NCBI GenBank assembly: GCA_008802785.1
Contig: VUYT01000014.1
Span: forward strand, 407,568 to 471,567
Length of the DNA stretch: 64,000 nucleotides
Origin: Symmetrospora coprosmae
Taxonomy: Eukaryota > Basidiomycota > Cystobasidiomycetes > Symmetrosporaceae
Direction of reading: 5' to 3'
The first letter of the stretch is position 1. Every line of letters starts with the position of its first letter. A program made the translations under genes and the position numbers. Below are positions 30,600 through 63,589 of this stretch, piece after piece. Under the pieces are notes generated by a model. That model was not told where the DNA came from. It saw nothing but the letters and a program-made list of their open reading frames with translations, and searched no databases.

Positions 30600-32410
30600 C
30601 TATGCTTTCCTTGAAACATCTGCAAATGCGGACACGATGGCATCTCTGTCATCCCACAGCTTATTCAAGTACGCTACCAGTCTGTCGGTGACGGGAGTGA
30701 CCCCCTCGTAATCCTCCAGCTGCTTGAATGATGCGCGGTTGTGAATGAACCTTGGTACGCCGGGTTCACCCTTGAGAAAGTTAAGCTTGTCAGTTGCGTT
30801 GCCTTCGCGGAAGTTCTCGGCCCAGTGAATCCACGGGTCTTGGATCGCGTCAAGTCGGTGAATGGCTTTTGTCGCATAACCCCAAGTCAAGTTGGCGGGA
30901 GGCTGATAATGCGACATCATGGCCATCTGGAGCATGGGCGTCTGCCGCCCTCCGCTGTCAATGATAGGGCGTCCGTTGACGTACGTGTCACGAATATTGA
31001 CACTTGCGACTTTGGGATCCAGCTTGTCGAAGAAGTCTGGGATCGATGTGGCGAGTTGGTTATCCATGTGCTCTGGCATGTACCATTCATCGAGATCGTG
31101 AACGGCGACCCAATCCGTAGGAGAGGTATGCCGGGCTCTTGCCATACAGTCCGTGTACCAAACGTTCTGAGGTAGGCGGACGGGCATACATAACATGGGT
31201 GAGGGTTGTATTGGCAGTCAGTAAGCGGGAAGCGACACCCGGATAGGCCGAAGTGCCCCGGATAGAGTGCCAGATACAGCGAATGCGCACGCACCTGATC
31301 CGCATATACTCCCTTGTGCAACATGATGTCTGTCTGCGAGGTGCTTGGACTGACAAACGGGGCGACGGACAGGGTGTCTCGGGTACCAAGGCGTGCATTC
31401 CAGATGTCAATCCATGTGGACATGTTGAACTGTCCGGCGCTGCGCTCGTAGAAGTGCACAGTCTTGAAGCCGACTCGAGCGTGATGTGAGCGCCACTCCA
31501 CGAGCTGGAACATGTCCAAATTCCCATGCAGAGGCGAGACGCAGATGCCAAGCTTAGCGCGTTCCGCCGGGAGGATGTACGCCGAAAGGTGGACCGCGTG
31601 TTGGAATTCTTGACCGTCGTGAAGTTGGAAGGTGAGAATCAAGTCATCAATGTCGGCGGGCGAGAGGCTGGCGGGAATAGTGCAGCGGAAGAGGTTGGTC
31701 TGTGCTAAGTCGCCATTGCGTTCGATGGCTCGTAGGCCTGACGTCTCACTGCCGAAGTGACACTCTTGCATGCGAAATACGCTCTGTGATCGTGCAGCAA
31801 AGATTTGAAAGCCGCTTCTCGTCTCCGGAACCGGGTGTTCGTCTGTCCCGGACGCATTCGTATAAAGCGCGGCATCAGCTGGAGCACCGTGTTGGCCACT
31901 GTCTCGAGTGCCCATGTCTCGATGACGTAAGAGGCACTCACTCTCGATGAAGGCTAATATCTCGACAAAGTTCCTGCCCTTTGTGTCGTTCATCACGTTC
32001 GCATGGAGGACCGTGAAGCGATGATTCTGATATGGTGGAGGCAGATTGCTACTTGTGAAGGTAGCATCGGCATAGGCCACCTCCGAGCTTGCTGGAGGCT
32101 CCAACAGTACTTTTGGGACCAAGTAGACAAGCGTCGAAGCGAGCGCCGCCAGTATCGTGACGAATGTAACGAAAGCAACCAGGAAGTGGTTGTAGCGCCG
32201 CAAGCGACCAGCAGCACGGTTGGGCAGGCCATCTATTGGGTCCGCTTCGGCATCGCTGTAATCCTCCCCGGCAATGGCTTTGTAGTGATTGGCGCCATCA
32301 AGAGGCATGATGAGGCAATCTTGAAGGTATGTTGACGGCCATGTGGTAGCACCGCCAATCAGCGGATCGCCTAGCTGCTTGGCTTGCTTTATGCTGTAAA
32401 GGCTGAGCAT
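30600..32410 (-). CDS. Glycosyltransferase family 92-like type II membrane protein (copy 1)
   Basis: Two exons (31295-32410, 30600-31166) give 560 residues. A cytoplasmic tail precedes one membrane span (HFLVAFVTFVTILAALAST, about residues 76-97), so a Golgi type II topology is expected. The lumenal part has LGICVSPLHGNLDMFQLVEW, then KTVHFYERSAG, and after the intron DWVAVHDLDEWYMPEH with a D-x-D-type nucleotide-sugar site, the pattern of GT92/DUF23 transferases. C-terminal FIHNRASFKQLEDYEG fits too. Acceptor sugar and linkage are unknown. A second ATG at 32308 could also be the start. A GTGAGT at 31944-31949 might be a real donor removing about 200 bp that are oddly unlike the paralogues. 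It lies next to a sugar-transporter-like gene and is paralogous to genes near 55 kb and 62.8 kb. Confidence 0.75.
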
Positions 32411-33108
32411 GTCGTTGTTTGAGTCCGAGGCCTAACCGGAACGAAGAGAAGACCAGATCTTGCCAGATCCACCAGAGCATCTAGAAAGGTCTTCTTACGG
32501 TAGTGCATTCCCGAGCGGACTGTGTGCGATAACCGGGAGCTCTGCGGCTGGTTGGACATGTGCTGCAGCCCTCTTGAGTCGGGAGCTCCCGTGGTACACA
32601 ATCGTCCCGAACCTGCGGCGGATTCGGCTTTCCGTAACGTGCCGTAACGTGCTGGGATCAGAATGGAAGGCGGACGCGGATTGTCTGCTACATGTACCGT
32701 AAGCTGCGGGTATTATATATAGGTAGTATTTATTCCTGAGGGCCTGAAAATCATGGGAGGGCCGTTCTGTCCGTGCAAAGGGCGTCCGAGCAGATCCCGC
32801 TCACGGAAGTCGCTTTCAAGTGAGAGCCTCCGGACCATCGCGGTGTGTGAGCGCTATAGGGCACACCGTTCGTCGCAGAGGTCAGCTACTTCCATACCAC
32901 TCCTCGCAGATTGAAACCGCGTGCGAGTTCCAGGCTAGCAACCTCACACGAGCCGAAATGGGTATGCAAGCTTCGCGATGGCTGACTGCGATGGGCCACG
33001 TGGGATACTGCAGACATGCATGGAGTCTACGCAGCAAGAGAGTGCCATGCGAACGCTTGTAGGAAATGACTAAAGGCTACACCTATGCAATGGAGAGTAG
33101 AGCTGAGC
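32411..33108. promoter_or_regulatory. Upstream region of GT92-like gene 1
   Basis: About 700 bp with no convincing gene. A tattatatatagg element near 32711 reads as a TATA-like box on the minus strand, but it lies about 300 bp from the start codon. The remainder is 3' flank of the transporter gene. Confidence 0.35.
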
Positions 33109-35099: not shown

Positions 35100-35263
35100 G
35101 AGCGAAGCGAGTTTAGACTCAGGTCGCTGCGCTCCAGGACCAGCGAGCGAAGCGAGTCGGGATCAGGTCGCTGCGCTCAGAGATAGCGAGCGAAGCGAGT
35201 CGGGATCAGGTCGCTGCGCTCAGAGATAGCGAACGGAGCGATTTGGGTTCAGTCGCTGCTCAC
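35100..35263. repeat. 43-bp tandem repeat with inverted arms, about 3.7 copies
   Basis: Copies run 35100-35144 (45 bp, diverged), 35145-35187 and 35188-35230 (43 bp each and identical), and a degenerate partial copy at 35231-35263. Each has a left arm gagcgaagcga and a right arm tcgctgcgctc, which are inverted repeats with one mismatch in 11 and about 13 bases between them, so each unit could form a hairpin. The array lies in a gene-poor gap about 80 bp upstream of a tRNA gene. No known element is recognised; spacing and host argue against CRISPR. Confidence 0.85.
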
Positions 35264-35345: not shown

Positions 35346-35442
35346 TCCGTGCTCGTCTATCGGCTAGGATGACCGCCTCTCATCATCAGCAGCTGCTGTG
35401 GTGCGCTCGCGGTAGGGCGGGGTTCGATTCCCCGGCATGGAT
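35346..35442 (+). tRNA. tRNA-Glu (anticodon CTC) with a 25-nt intron
   Basis: The acceptor stem tccgtgc pairs with gcatgga (one G-T). The D arm gtctatcggctaggat has the conserved A14 and GG pair. The anticodon stem accgc/gcggt encloses loop ctctca plus c, so the anticodon is CTC with T33 and A37. The T arm is cggg/g-ttcgatt-cccc/g, with the B-box core ggttcgattcc. An intron at 35383-35407 sits after position 37, the canonical place for eukaryotic nuclear tRNA introns. The discriminator base is T at 35442. The fold was done by hand. Confidence 0.88.
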
Positions 35443-36353: not shown

Positions 36354-39300
36354 ATGGACGCGCTGTTGGTGCCTTCCCGTGAGTTCCACCGAGCGACTCA
36401 ATAGTGTGCAGCAGACAACACGAGCATGCTAGAGTACTCGCAGACTGATACAATATGCCTGTCTCCTGTGACCTGTGCTGACAGCAGCGAGAGTCAGTCG
36501 AGCGCCGGCTCGTTCCGCTCTGCCCGGAGCACGCTGGGCGGTGAGCATCCGACTCGGAGCGTTTTTCTCAGACCTCAAGAGGGTCTTACTGATACACATC
36601 GCATGCTTGGTGTTCTATACAGCTTCTCTCGAAGATCCCTTCATCCTCGCGGGCGAGACAGACGACGAGAAGAGCGTCAGTGCCGAGAGCGACAGTGATG
36701 GCGCGTTCGATAACGGTTACGTAGACGACAGCCAGGGCTACAGTGAGTAGACACAAGATGCTCGCGCTCTTCGATTGCTACTGTCGTACCGACTGGTCTG
36801 ATGCTCCTTTGCCGTATGCGCCAGATGCCCGCGCAGAACCTCTAGCATACCTCCCCCCAACCCCCAAGTCCAACAAGCAAGTAGCTCGCAAGAGCACCGG
36901 TCGTGGTGCGCTCACCAACGCAGAGCGTTGTCGTGATGGCAGCGCACTTCGCCGCAAGGATCTCGAGGCCATCAAGCGCACCGAGCATCGGACACCGACC
37001 GCCAAGCAGCGCAACAAGAAAACGAAGGATTTTGACGACTTCGCCGATGACGACGAGTTCAGCCCCTCCCAGGCAGCAGAGGAGGTAGAAGAGGAGATGA
37101 AGAACGACAGCGAAAGTCAGCTATCGTCTCTAGTGGAGGAGTCTCAGCTCAACCAGCGAGCGCCGGTCACCTCACGCAGGCGCGCAACATCAGCCGGTCT
37201 CGGCGAGCAGCAGGAGGATGAGGATGAGGATGAGGCTGAGGGTGAGGCTGAGGAGTACGAGGGCGAAGAGGACGACGAGGACGATAGCGAAGACGAGGAC
37301 GAGGAGACGGGAGAGCGGCGTGAGTCGTAGAAGGCCGTGGCCCTGCATACCGCGCTCGCATCTATGCTAACTCATATTCCCCAACTGCAGACCGTTATCT
37401 GACGTACGAGAGAGCTCGACTCCGCCGCTCCCAATCACACTACGACCCTAGTCGCTCTTCACCCGCTACACGCTCCGCCCGCTCGTCGACTTCGAGCCGT
37501 CTGGGTTGTAGCAGCTCGCTCGAGAGCTCGACGACTGCATCAAAGCTGCAGGACTCCTTCGAAGACTCCTTCGTTGAAGACGATCGAGAGAGTGAAGAGG
37601 GAGAGGCTTCGTACCGTCCAGGTCTGTCTTATACGACCTCCTCGGCTAAGCGAGGCGTGCGTGGGGTTGAGGCGGAAGAGAGCCAAGAGAACAGCGACGA
37701 GGATGAGAGTAGTGACGAGGAGGTGGCCGACGTCGGCACGAGCCAAGGGCTGCAGGCTGCCTACGAGCAGGACGACACGGAGATGGACGAAGAGGAGAGT
37801 GGAAAGGAGGATGAGAGGGAGGACGAGAGAGACGAGAGCGAGGTCTCGGGTCAGGAAGAGCTTGCAGTTGGCAGCAAGCGACCTTCAGCTTTTGCACGTC
37901 AAGGTGGATGGGATGTGTCTATATTGGGTTCACGAGCCGAGACTTTTGCTGACACGCCGTTGCTACTCAGCTCGGAACAATACAAAGAGGCCGCGCACGC
38001 ATGCGAGGTCATCCAAGCGAGTCAGCCACTCCCCTCCTATCCTGTCTTCCTCCCTCCCTTCCAGTTGCAGCGGTTCGAAGGAGGAGATACCGGGAAGCGA
38101 GGAGTACGCTGTGACGGGGAAGGGTGTGGATCTCAACAGAGGCAACGATGACGAGCAGGATCAGCCCATAGTCGCAGAGGATGGAGACGAGTACGAGAGC
38201 AGTCAAAGTAAGTCCTCTGTATAGCAATGAGGAGCACAAACGATCTGGAATTGACCTCTAGACACCGCTCCAGGTCAGCACATACCCGGAGCCACTCGAC
38301 CTGGCGCTAAGCCGACACTCTACGGCCCCGGTATCCCTGGCTCTTCTCCTCGCCAGGCTCCTTCCGAGTCAGCATGTTTGTCTCCATATCGGTACATGTC
38401 CAGGTCGCCTTCCATTGCGGCATTTGGAGAGGACAATCAGCATCCTGATCCGCAGGAAAGCGAGGAGAAGGACAAGCTGGAGAGCAGCGCGCAGAAGCAT
38501 GAGAGCCAAGACGATGGCGGAACTGAGCGAGACTTGGCAGACCAGTTCCAGGATGCGCGAGAGGCTTGCGAGCGGGCGGGAAAGCAGCGTGCGATGCAGG
38601 CACGCGTCGACGAAGCGAGCGAAGATGAAGGAGAGCGCGACTTACGCACCAAGCCAAGGCGTGCGGGAGGGCGCCGCAAGGGGCAAAAGCTTGGGAAACG
38701 TACATTCTCGCACAAGTCTGACAAGTCCAACGACGCGGTTCCCGACGATGAGTCAGATGAAGAGGAAATGGAGCGACAAGAAAGGCGCACCAGCGTGCGG
38801 ATCAGGCACGATCCCGCAAGAGCGGCTGATTGGGACATCAACGACGTAAGTTTGGCAGCGCTTCTTCAGTGTTGGCAGCGCAGTGTCTGATACTCTACGA
38901 TGCACTGTCATTAGGCCAGATGGGACAAGCTCGCTGAGCGCATGCACGCCACCTTCACTGCGAATGGGTCGACACCATACAAACCCCAAGACTGGACCTC
39001 ACACAGCAACTCCTACCAGCTTCCTGCAGAGCAAGTATTCAAGCGGGAGGACGTCAAGCTGACGGTGCTTGAAGCATGCAACTGGGCGATAAAGGCCTTC
39101 AAGAACCACAAGCGGAATCAAACATCCGTAAAGTGGCACCTCGTATCTCTCGAGCTGCTGGTCTACATCGTCACACAGCTTGAGGGCGATGGGTGTGTCA
39201 TGGTGGACGAGTCAGATCTACGTGCACCCGAGGACGGAGGCACAGCGTCTCTACACCTCGAACTGGAGGTGGCCGAGAATGGCTATCCGATCCTTTACTT

Positions 39301-40234
39301 CTTTCGATACGTCCTTGGCGGCAACGTCCGCAGCGCCTCGGCCGCCCAAGGCAATCAGCAAGCAACCCGATCTTGGAGGCTTAGTGGTTACCCGGCGTTG
39401 GATCTCATCCGCAACCTCGCTCCCCGCGCTACTTCGAAGCGCAATCAGCACGCTCTCGCGGCGACGTACCCTCTCGCCATCAATCTCTCTACACCAAAAG
39501 ACAACCTCAAACCCTGCGCCATCTACGACAAAAAACGTCGCATCGTCACAAAGTACCGCTCGCAGAGGGCAGCCGGAGTCTACACGCCTCCCGGAGGTGA
39601 AGCTTTCGGTGCGAGCGTCCGCAACATCCTGCAGAGCACGGACCCGCAGAAGAAGAAGAAAACACCACAGAAAGAGGGTTTCGAGTGAGTCTCTTGATCT
39701 CCATCTTTAATACCCATGCTGACATGCGCCGGCGTGAACAGCATCTTTCACATATCGCACGCCTTGACCGCCGCCGAAGCGGCTGTAGAAGTCGCCAGGG
39801 TCAGGGAGGGACTCAGGGAGCTCAAGGAGATCCCGCAGGTGGATGTTACAGAGGATTTGACCAACGTCCAAGCTGCAGGGTGGATCGACAGCGACGGCTG
39901 CTTGCAGCTGAGGACCTTTGGCCTCTGCCAGAAGTACCCGCAGATCCTGTACGCCTTTCAGCGACGATGGGGCGGGTCAGTCACGCGGATGTCGAACTCG
40001 GACGCCTATACCTGGCAGATCCACAGAAAGGAGTTGCGTGATGTCTTCGCGGCCGACGTCTTCCCCTTCCTCCTCGAGAAGTACGACCAAGGCCAGATCA
40101 TCATCAATTCCACCAGCGAGACGGCAAAGGCAGACAATATTCGGCTCAGCAGCCTCAAAGGCCACCAGTTGGGACGCATCACTGTCAAGGAGGGCATGGC
40201 CTTGGACCTCGACGCAACCTTCGAGCGCAAGTAG
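36354..40234 (+). CDS. Acidic, Ser-rich protein with C-terminal tandem LAGLIDADG-like endonuclease domains
   Basis: The proposed exons are 36354-36378, 36433-36540, 36623-36742, 36825-37319, 37391-37903, 37971-38007, 38071-38207, 38262-38845, 38915-39684 and 39742-40234, giving about 1093 residues. An alternative start is the ATG at 36426. Residues 1-680 are acidic, Ser/Glu-rich and disordered, with basic patches such as ARNNTKRPRTHASGSK (a possible nuclear signal). From 38915 a folded region starts (ARWDKLAERMHATF). VYIVTQLEGDGCVMVDES (39161-39214), then PILYFFRYVLGGN and NLAPRATSKRNQHAL, match one LAGLIDADG half. AAGWIDSDGCLQLRT (39872-39916), then ILYAFQRRWGGSVTRM and FPFLLEKYDQGQI, match a second. 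The Asp at the metal-binding position is kept in both. No intein or intron context is visible, so this seems a free-standing nuclear gene. Function unknown; domain call by eye. Confidence 0.65.
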
Positions 40235-60716: not shown

Positions 60717-61943
60717 AAAGAAAACCCCGAGGGAAAAGGAGGAGGGGGAGTCCAAAACAAGAGGACGCGTCTCAGCGGGCTGTGATCAGCAGCTAAGTAC
60801 GGGGCCATGAATGCAAGCAAGTCGGAGAAAATTGGAGGGAACAGACGAACCCAACAGCTGCGGGTTGGGCAGATGACCTCAGCGCGCTTGGCTGCGCGAG
60901 GTAATACGACACGGAGAATCGGTGTATTGCGGAGCCAAGGAGCACGAGAATGAACCTGCTTGGAGCACAATCATGAATGACCGTACAATCCATCTGTGCG
61001 TCCAGTCTTGCTTCGTACGGGCCCACGAGGAGCTCTCCAAAGAGGACTCACAGATTTCTAACTAGAGACCTCCTTAGGAATGACCCTCTGCTCCATCTCC
61101 AGCTTGTCGCCCGCGGTGCGGTTGCAGCGAATTCTTCATCGTATTTGCGCGCCAAGCTGTCCGGAGCCTCGCTGCGTCTCCTGGTAGGACCAATCGAAGC
61201 CATGCAGATCTCTATAGATCAGATTTCGAGTTCGAGGGAAGACGCCAGATCCAGAGTGTCGTGTAGTTTGTGTGTTCCGCGTATCCAGACACACGTCGCC
61301 GTGCGTACTAGCTTGTACCGTTACCTTATCGGCGTCAATACTCGTATCTTTTACTATGCACAAAGCCACTGAGCTGTCATCCCAAGTTTCGTCAGGTTTA
61401 GTCTAAATGGAACGGCAAGTAACGATTGGGTCCACCACAGGTCCCGGCCTGCCTTCCTATCCGAAAGCCCCCGGGTAGGTCTCGGGCCGTAACCCGAAAA
61501 GGGAAGCCTTCTAAAAACATCCGGCAACGCACCCACTGGGGACCACGGGGCATCCACGCTGTCCCGAAACAGGCAACTCATCCAGTAAGTGTCAGTAGCC
61601 TTTTCTCACCCTCTATCGTAAAGGTCTCGGGCCATAGATCTTCGTTATAATCAACGCGGCTGCTGTCAGGAGGCCACCAACCCAGACAGCTGTAATCTAC
61701 ACTCTCGATCTCACAGTGTACGTACTGCTCAGCAGCTCCCGAATCTTAAGGAGGAGTTTGTCACCCCTACAACAAGCCAGCGACAGTTTGGGTGAGAACC
61801 GATACCTGTGAGGCTGTAAGCTCTGTATTCGCATAGATCCTCCACCCTCTAGCTAAGTACGGTGTGTATTTCCACAGTCTCTCTCCCGGCCAGCGTATAC
61901 TCGCCGCTGGCAGAGCGAAAACCCGATATAAAGAATCAGGAGG
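60717..61943. other. Intergenic region between SGNH gene and GT92-like copy 3
   Basis: About 1.2 kb between divergent genes. It may include a first exon of the SGNH gene on the minus strand (about 60930-60995), supported only by a hydrophobic stretch. The rest shows no protein-like frame, RNA gene or repeat that I can recognise. Confidence 0.35.
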
Positions 61944-63589
61944 ATGAATATGCCCAGCAGCCATGACCTGGGCGCCGAGATGGACTCCTTTCTGCTCGCC
62001 TCTCCAAATGACGGCTGCCGGTCCCGGTTGGACGCATATTTGCCATACTCGTCACCAGGATACAAGCAAAGACCTGTGTCGCGAGTGATGCATACAACCC
62101 GCCATTTCCGGTATCTAGTTGGAACCATCACAGTTGCACTCCTGCTCTACTGCCTGCATCGCTCCGGCAGCCTTCCTGCGAAGGATTACCTTTCACGTAA
62201 ATACGGTTTTTCGACATCGACGGACAAAGGCAACCAGATACCCGTCTGGACTTCTCTCCAATTCGCCGAGGGTTTTCAGAAGCGACGGCTCACGATCCCG
62301 CAAGATCACCTTCAGAACGAGAATAAAACATCAACGCACGCAGTGCTTCACTCAGTAGTCGTGGATTACATCGGCCTAGCAGAAGACCCCTCGAAGACCA
62401 CTATCAGGGTACTCTTCGCTGCATGGGACCATCCTATGAACAAGGATTCGCATATCGCTTGTTCGCGCTTCCTGGAGAACGGGGACTACAAGCGCCGCTT
62501 CAGCTTGATACTCCGACCGGATTCGACCGATCCGTCCAAAGTCATCGAGGGCCAGCACTCACACTTCTGGACGCACGAGATGGGCTTCAAATTCCCTTCT
62601 CAGAGTCTCGACTTCACCTCTCTACCCGCCAATCACGAGATACCGGGCGAACTCAATGTCTTCCTCAACGAGACTGTAGTCGGCACCTTCCCCTTCACCC
62701 TCACCCGGCAGCAGCTTCCCACAAGCCGCTTAGCTATCTGCATGAAGCCTTTCTTCGGAAACACTGATTACAGCAAGCTGTTAGAGTGTAGGTCTGACTC
62801 TTTGTCTTCGGTTTGCAATATTGCTTCCGCGCTGAACAACTTGGTGGCCTTGCATCGCGTCTTTGCATTTGCACAGGGCGAGAACACCATCGCATGCTAG
62901 GCTTCGACGTAGTTCACTTCTCTCACAGGCACAAGGATTTCGGCGAAGTCATCAAGCGTCTGAACGCAGCAACTGGAGGGCGAGATACCTTCCGATGGAA
63001 GCCCGTATTTGAGAAGGGAACAGACAGTCCATATTGGGACGAATCGATGATGTTCGACGAGTGTTACACTATACACCGTCAGACGGCAGACTGGATAGGA
63101 GTGTGGGATATGGATGAGTTCTTCGCGCCTCTCCCCAAGCACCCGTGGACTAGCGAGTGGCTGGAGGACTGGATGTCCAAGCTTGATCCGGGTATAGTGA
63201 GCCTGGCAATGCCCATGACCTGGGTCGATAGGAATCGCTTCGGCATGATCCCCAACGAGCGACTGCTGGCAATCGATCCGACTTTGTCGCAGAGCGAGTT
63301 GGGGACCATTAGCTCGTTTCAGCAGAACGCCAACGGTGTCCGGGAGTGGCACGACACCCACTTCCACAAGTCTTTTCACAGAACTTCCAAACAATTCTCG
63401 TCAGACATCCACTACGGCTGGCCGGGTCCTGAGACGCAAACAGACCCTCTGGCGGTGGTTATCTACCATGCTCGACACGACCCACTGTTCGACAGGAACG
63501 ATTACATCCACTATCCTCTCAATGCCCACGTAGTAGCGTTCTGGAAAGCGCTCGCGTTGAAAGTGCAGTCGGCATTTTCTGCCGCCTGA
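61944..63589 (+). CDS. Glycosyltransferase family 92-like type II membrane protein (copy 3)
   Basis: Two exons (61944-62787, 62877-63589) give 518 residues. A cytosolic tail of about 55 residues precedes a membrane span (YLVGTITVALLLYCL), so a Golgi type II orientation is likely. The lumenal region has RLAICMKPFFGNTDYSKLLE, then across the intron WREHHRMLGFDVVHFSHRHK, the typical GT92 block, and DWIGVWDMDEFFAPLP with the D-x-D metal and nucleotide-sugar site. LDPGIVSLAMPMTWVDRNRF and FHKSFHRTSKQFSSDIHYG complete it. Unlike copy 2 it is unbroken. The intron lies at the same place as in copy 2 (after the first base of the WR tryptophan codon), supporting common descent. Sugar donor and acceptor are unknown. 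Confidence 0.8.

Follow-up and report, generated by a model that had tools for sequence, protein, structure and literature searches.

A free-standing nuclear gene of Symmetrospora coprosmae encodes a double-motif LAGLIDADG-superfamily protein with retained active-site-type residues

The 64,000-nucleotide stretch of Symmetrospora coprosmae DNA studied here (the window) makes up the end of contig C5, in a genome of 20.05 Mb, 77 contigs and 58% GC, and it contains a plus-strand gene ending at position 40234. A first-pass annotation made from the letters alone had proposed that this gene ends in a tandem pair of LAGLIDADG-like endonuclease domains. Our data support that interpretation and indicate that the gene encodes a double-motif LAGLIDADG-superfamily protein. 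We describe the sequence relationship of its two domains, the predicted fold, the active-site-type residues that it retains, the structure of the gene, a paralogue and a selection-like pattern of substitutions. Judged from sequence, the probability is roughly 0.55 that the product is a nuclear double-motif protein of the I-CreI/I-MsoI type, which binds DNA site-specifically, retains the ability to cleave it and has resided in the nucleus for a long time.

Results

LAGLIDADG relationship of the C-terminal part

The last two exons, spliced across a 57-base GT-AG intron, encode a C-terminal part of 420 amino acids. All six short motifs on which the proposal had been built lie where they had been placed (Table 1). 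The window protein, queried with the 57-base intron read through, matched the PHROG family phrog_5046 over two stretches (E=1.3e-10). Each of the two exons also matched this family by itself, as did the corresponding exons of a paralogue, L002 (1.3e-9 and 1.3e-4), and all 15 rows of alignment A4. Because each half matches the profile, chance motif matches were rejected. In a single comparison, the profiles of the two halves matched each other with a probability of 98.4 (E 6.8e-15). The two-half layout is borne out by the per-exon matches, the half-against-half match and the predicted double fold. PHROG labels phrog_5046 as an HNH endonuclease. We read this label as wrong, and rejected an HNH identity, because a clear LAGLIDADG protein, the product of the 319-residue open reading frame of locus L014 on a viral contig, matches both phrog_5046 (1.4e-38) and Pfam PF00961 (1.8e-12, above the cut-off).

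A 12-row profile (A3) found solved LAGLIDADG enzymes in the PDB, with an I-MsoI chain as the best match (4.4e-12). A single-sequence search of the PDB gave just two weak, unrelated matches, and an NCBIfam scan gave nothing relevant. Scanned against Pfam at E up to 10, the C-terminal 420 residues matched PF00961 and no other family. By itself Pfam thus provides no more than a hint, as PF00961 stayed below its cut-off.

Predicted fold and active-site-type residues

Fold prediction, run in part, gave a double LAGLIDADG fold and did not contradict the annotation. The model contains two alpha-beta-beta-alpha-beta-beta-alpha units in tandem, with a mean predicted local distance difference test score (pLDDT) of 61.4 and a predicted template modelling score of 0.62. 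In blocks of 10 residues, the second core had pLDDT values of 83-95; those of the first core were mostly 78-90 but fell to 44 and 58 in places. The linker and ends were of low confidence. Twenty-five residues remain after the last modelled core helix (residues 401-414 of 439). Two structure comparisons with the PDB each listed 50 rows, all of them LAGLIDADG enzymes. The best viral structure match was a LAGLIDADG protein of Clandestinovirus, presumably a giant virus (E 8.6e-12).

In the alignments from the 12-row profile, each motif's acidic residue aligns with I-CreI's catalytic Asp, and the Lys that opens the K-x-x-Q element aligns with the I-CreI Lys. We take the I-CreI residues to be Asp20, Gln47 and Lys98 and assume their accepted roles. 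Thirteen rows of A4 are free of gaps at all of these places. In them the motif position is Asp or Glu in 13 of 13 in half 1 and 13 of 13 in half 2, the window gene having EGDG and DSDG. The Lys is kept in 13/13 rows in both halves, as are the Gln of half 2 (13/13) and the Gly-Gly of half 1 (13/13). The window gene, its paralogue and two metagenomic orthologue pieces all keep both acidic residues and both Lys. Both acidic motifs are conserved in these sequences, and this check, also run in part, does not refute the annotation.

Gene structure

The tentative nine-exon model is open over 1087 residues and has GT-AG ends at 8/8 introns, its junctions having been picked for GT-AG ends and an open frame; the start codon and the introns at 37904-37970 and 38008-38070 are uncertain. 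Its N-terminal 667 residues are 24% Asp+Glu, and no Pfam match at E 0.01 was found in the three exon pieces of this region that were scanned. The gene is not inside a self-splicing intron or an intein but stands free between ordinary genes, and no Rfam family was above threshold anywhere in the window. The annotation's description of a free-standing, intron-rich nuclear fungal gene holds, and on this tentative model so does the long acidic N-terminus.

Table 1. Features of the LAGLIDADG gene, in window coordinates
Feature	Position	Strand	Details
Tentative N-terminal exons	36426..38845	+	36426-36540, 36623-36742, 36825-37319, 37391-37903, 37971-38007, 38071-38207, 38262-38845
Intron ahead of the LAGLIDADG exons	38846..38914	+	69 bases, GTAAGT...TAG, phase 0
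Penultimate exon	38915..39684	+	first LAGLIDADG half, preceded by a linker to the N-terminal region; phrog_5046 E=7.2e-4; one predicted alpha-beta-beta-alpha-beta-beta-alpha unit
First-half motif QLEGDGCV	39176-39199	+	
First-half VLGGN	39311-39325	+	Gly-Gly 39317-39322
First-half KRNQH	39437-39451	+	catalytic-type Lys 39437-39439
Intron separating the halves	39685..39741	+	spliceosomal type, 57 bases, GTGAGT...CAG, phase 2
Last exon	39742..40234	+	linker helix, second LAGLIDADG half, stop codon; phrog_5046 E=9.3e-5
Second-half motif WIDSDGCL	39881-39904	+	
Second-half Gln	39929-39931	+	
Second-half RWGGS	39965-39979	+	
Second-half KYDQG	40079-40093	+	Lys 40079-40081

Paralogue and selection

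The 20-Mb genome holds at least two whole copies, the window gene and L002 on contig C14, which are 43% identical. A five-exon model of L002 encodes 643 residues, and several alternatives differ upstream. Its N-terminus of 217 residues contains 10% Asp+Glu and 18% Lys+Arg, with a PKKKRAG stretch that we take to resemble a nuclear localisation signal. The phase 0 intron ahead of the LAGLIDADG part and the phase 2 intron between the halves are common to both genes; introns and an N-terminal extension are therefore older than the duplication.

Apart from the exon match, the regions around the two copies have only one 28-base match in common (E 0.009), and no WHO-like target repeats were seen around them. 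An isolated 150-base piece 50 kb from L002 (L003 1674-1823; G000:C14:278551-278700, minus strand) is 91% identical to L002 exon 4, and the broader match at protein level in that place contains two stops. A tRNA-like gene (35346-35442, plus strand) precedes the tentative start of the window gene by about 1 kb; it is one which ARAGORN called a tRNA-SeC with anticodon tca and which by eye is better read as an intron-bearing tRNA-Glu(CUC). Insertion linked to tRNA genes was rejected, as there was none at three loci around L002 or at three around the L003 fragment.

The orthologue pieces P0001 and P0003 are open and 83% and 86% identical to the window gene. Changes in the orthologue fall in 7/147 columns that the paralogues share and in 41/193 others (P 7.6e-6). 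This column pattern, which is not a ratio of nonsynonymous to synonymous substitutions, fits selection on the protein. Two further proteins in public assemblies, P0008 and P0012, equal L002 at 100% protein identity, while the window gene is represented there at only 83-86% (P0001 and P0003). By eye, P0012 matches L002 even through intron translations, and its first residues differ. Should these four sequences share one strain, either a third copy would exist or the rate of evolution of the window gene would be far above that of L002.

Relatives

About 5.8 billion protein sequences were searched three times, which gave 2, 5 and 11 listed proteins, 15 of them different, including the two that are L002 itself. 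No named fungal protein was among the matches of these searches, which need shared 5-residue words and could miss distant fungal relatives. At least one Pfam LAGLIDADG cut-off was passed by P0004-P0007 and none by P0002, P0009, P0010 and P0011. The relatives include colinear double-motif proteins. P0004 is a double-LAGLIDADG protein of the dinoflagellate Durusdinium trenchii on a 1.54-Mb contig, which suggests a nuclear gene; its source calls it 'Kinesin-like protein KIF28P', a name that is probably wrong. In the metagenomic proteins P0002, P0006, P0007 and P0009-P0011 the halves and linker are colinear with those of the fungal gene (P0002 at a phmmer E of 8e-4). Alignment A5 shows a C-terminal extension common to all six, whereas the fungal gene has an N-terminal one instead. 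Pfam matches in five of the six were all below cut-off and included AP2 in P0007 (3.1e-4) and weak Arm-DNA-binding matches in P0006, P0007 and P0011. A 12-row tree, which carried a long-branch warning, had 5/9 inner branches well supported and is used descriptively only, placed the fungal pair weakly (74/67) as sister to these proteins.

In a viral collection one scan found at least 15 distant loci, of which L014 was read as a two-motif free-standing gene, and four other scans found nothing. Viral genes of this phrog_5046 type belong to the same profile family and likewise stand free, but unlike the fungal gene they are intronless and lack a long N-terminus. They lie beyond the reach of tblastn, which with three exon queries gave no match at E 0.1 in the phage collection. 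Prokaryotic genomes yielded one distant locus from 507 pattern stretches. We infer that the gene was taken up from a free-standing source of the virus type; an organellar source is also possible. No intein family was found in the C-terminal 420 residues, and the protein gives no support to an intein origin. A genome search with PF05204 found nothing, but this search was weak, as PF00961 and PF14528 likewise missed both known copies.

Genomic setting

Five chitin synthase N-terminal matches show the genome to be fungal, and its size, its GC content and the density of introns suggest a basidiomycete. Neighbouring genes in the window carry ELYS, SNF2/HEAT and DEAD-box domains, and the GC content at third codon positions (GC3) of the LAGLIDADG gene is similar to theirs. 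Organellar contamination was rejected on account of the 20-Mb, 77-contig genome, the chitin synthase matches, these neighbours and the neighbour-like GC3. Readings of the neighbours as ATRIP, MOT1, PRP28 and CCR4 were made by eye only. STE3, a family that would link to mating type, was not found, but the control gave no match anywhere, and the negative therefore carries no weight.

Elsewhere in the window, a tandem array at 35100-35259 has a period of 43, 3.7 copies and 88% matches, and is rich in GAGCGAAGCGAG and CGCTGCGCTC words. Two look-alike glycosyltransferase-like genes are present, one at 30920-32431 (minus strand) with a GT92 match below cut-off (E 6e-4), and the other at 61932-63589 (plus strand) judged by eye.

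Discussion

Double LAGLIDADG enzymes, including those of free-standing viral genes, are well known. We assign the fungal protein to the structural type of I-CreI and I-MsoI, LAGLIDADG homing endonucleases that also exist in engineered single-chain forms. In nature these enzymes are small homodimers encoded in organellar introns, whereas the fungal protein is one nuclear-encoded chain with spliceosomal introns in its gene and a 667-residue N-terminal extension. Enzymes of this family bind DNA sites of about 20 bp. As a pseudo-dimer, the fungal protein would bind one long site of this length, with one acidic residue per motif holding metal ions at the interface, and would cut the DNA. It would act in the nucleus, and the acidic tail may control or place the enzyme. 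The history of the gene may have begun with a free-standing endonuclease gene that gained the N-terminal extension and spliceosomal introns. A duplication would then have put a second copy elsewhere in the genome, and both copies would have been kept by selection on the protein.

Several results weigh against a DNA-cutting LAGLIDADG enzyme of this kind. PF00961 matched the C-terminal 420 residues at E=0.019, with 16.3 bits against a cut-off of 23.1, and in L002 it gave 17.5 bits for the first half and no match for the second. A profile made from the fungal rows only had one weak match in the PDB, a homing endonuclease at E 1.2, and the alignment behind the structural model, with 15 rows, already included LAGLIDADG relatives. 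Val-Thr (residues 86-87) replaces the Ala-Gly of LAGLIDADG helix 1 in both the window gene and P0001, where L002 and 10/10 distant relatives have Gly at the second place; this change may alter helix packing. At residue 121, in half 1, both fungal paralogues have Glu, whereas 9/13 rows, the orthologue among them, have Gln and 2 have Ala. When selection was tested a second time, on columns conserved across the family, the difference was not significant (4/48 against 30/199, P 0.35).

It is possible, with a clearly smaller probability than we give to a retained cutter, that the protein is a DNA-binding regulator. In that case the LAGLIDADG pair would have been kept for site-specific binding while cleavage faded or was blocked, and the 667-residue acidic N-terminus would serve as an activation or chromatin-interaction domain. 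The altered helix 1 would be in keeping with this, and WhiA offers a precedent. The available parts of the WhiA paper describe a LAGLIDADG domain that lost the residues for metal binding and catalysis and is accompanied by a helix-turn-helix domain (PMC3781837). Unlike WhiA, the fungal gene keeps its catalytic-type acidic residues and both Lys, in the paralogue and orthologue pieces as well, and has no helix-turn-helix Pfam match in the 420 residues. A pure regulator is hard to reconcile with the retention of these residues in both halves of both paralogues, and the retained residues speak against a WhiA-like regulator that lost them. The predicted N-terminus of L002, moreover, is not acidic.

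We consider an active selfish element unlikely. Such a free-standing nuclear homing endonuclease would cut its own empty site, be copied in by repair and be inherited in excess. The kept active-site-type residues would suit it, as would the relatives among free-standing genes of viral contigs, the viral structure matches, the sporadic occurrence of the family in the databases searched and the small diverged piece near L002. The 20 Mb yielded just two whole copies, however, a number that is a lower bound, and their shared introns point to an old duplication. Their flanks share nothing beyond the exon match and the 28-base match, and so contain no shared target fragment as in WHO. The two copies, shared introns and lack of shared flanks argue against current spread. 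A decaying relic, a nuclear endonuclease gene still open but functionless, is very improbable. The helix-1 change could be read as a sign of decay, but the frame is open over nine tentative exons, the orthologue pieces are open too, and differences concentrate at sites that vary between the paralogues. A long-resident nuclear protein that binds a specific site and can still cleave it accords best with these observations.

Free-standing LAGLIDADG genes seem rare in nuclei. The free-standing nuclear cases in fungi that we found in print were HO/WHO and an inactivated GIY-YIG gene of Ustilago, as far as the accessible parts of the two papers go (PMC7282813, PMC7593156). HO and WHO of budding yeasts are free-standing nuclear genes of the LAGLIDADG superfamily, HO being a domesticated cutter; in the portions available they are described as intein-derived with a C-terminal zinc finger (PMC7282813). 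Unlike them, the C-terminal 420 residues of the fungal gene have no intein, Hom_end or zinc-finger Pfam match. The nuclear genome of the fungus Ustilago maydis also contains a homing endonuclease gene, UMAG_11064, which differs in being of the GIY-YIG type, with mitochondrial codon use, recently inserted and inactivated, according to the accessible text (PMC7593156). The recruitment of LAGLIDADG domains for host work is illustrated by WhiA and by OTP51, which in the sections available combines such domains with pentatricopeptide repeats and acts in the splicing of an intron of the chloroplast (PMC3781837, PMC8393795). The part of a Schizosaccharomyces osmophilus paper that was accessible concerns mitochondrial LAGLIDADG genes only (PMC10085805). 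No description of the present nuclear family was found in the open-access literature that was searched.

A more far-reaching and doubtful idea is that the gene belongs to an undescribed nuclear, non-intein LAGLIDADG lineage from a viral-type source, present separately in dinoflagellates and domesticated for programmed cutting of host chromosomes. The protein would then be a counterpart of HO of other descent, and the different N-termini of the paralogues might mark two separately controlled cutters. A second route, unrelated to that of the intein-derived HO/WHO and marked by spliceosomal introns, an old paralogue and intact active-site-type residues, would show how a selfish DNA cutter settles in the nucleus. 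Carried as an ordinary intron-split chromosomal gene, the genome cutter may have been tamed or may still be selfish, and the dinoflagellate relatives suggest that the settlement of LAGLIDADG genes in nuclei may have happened more than once.
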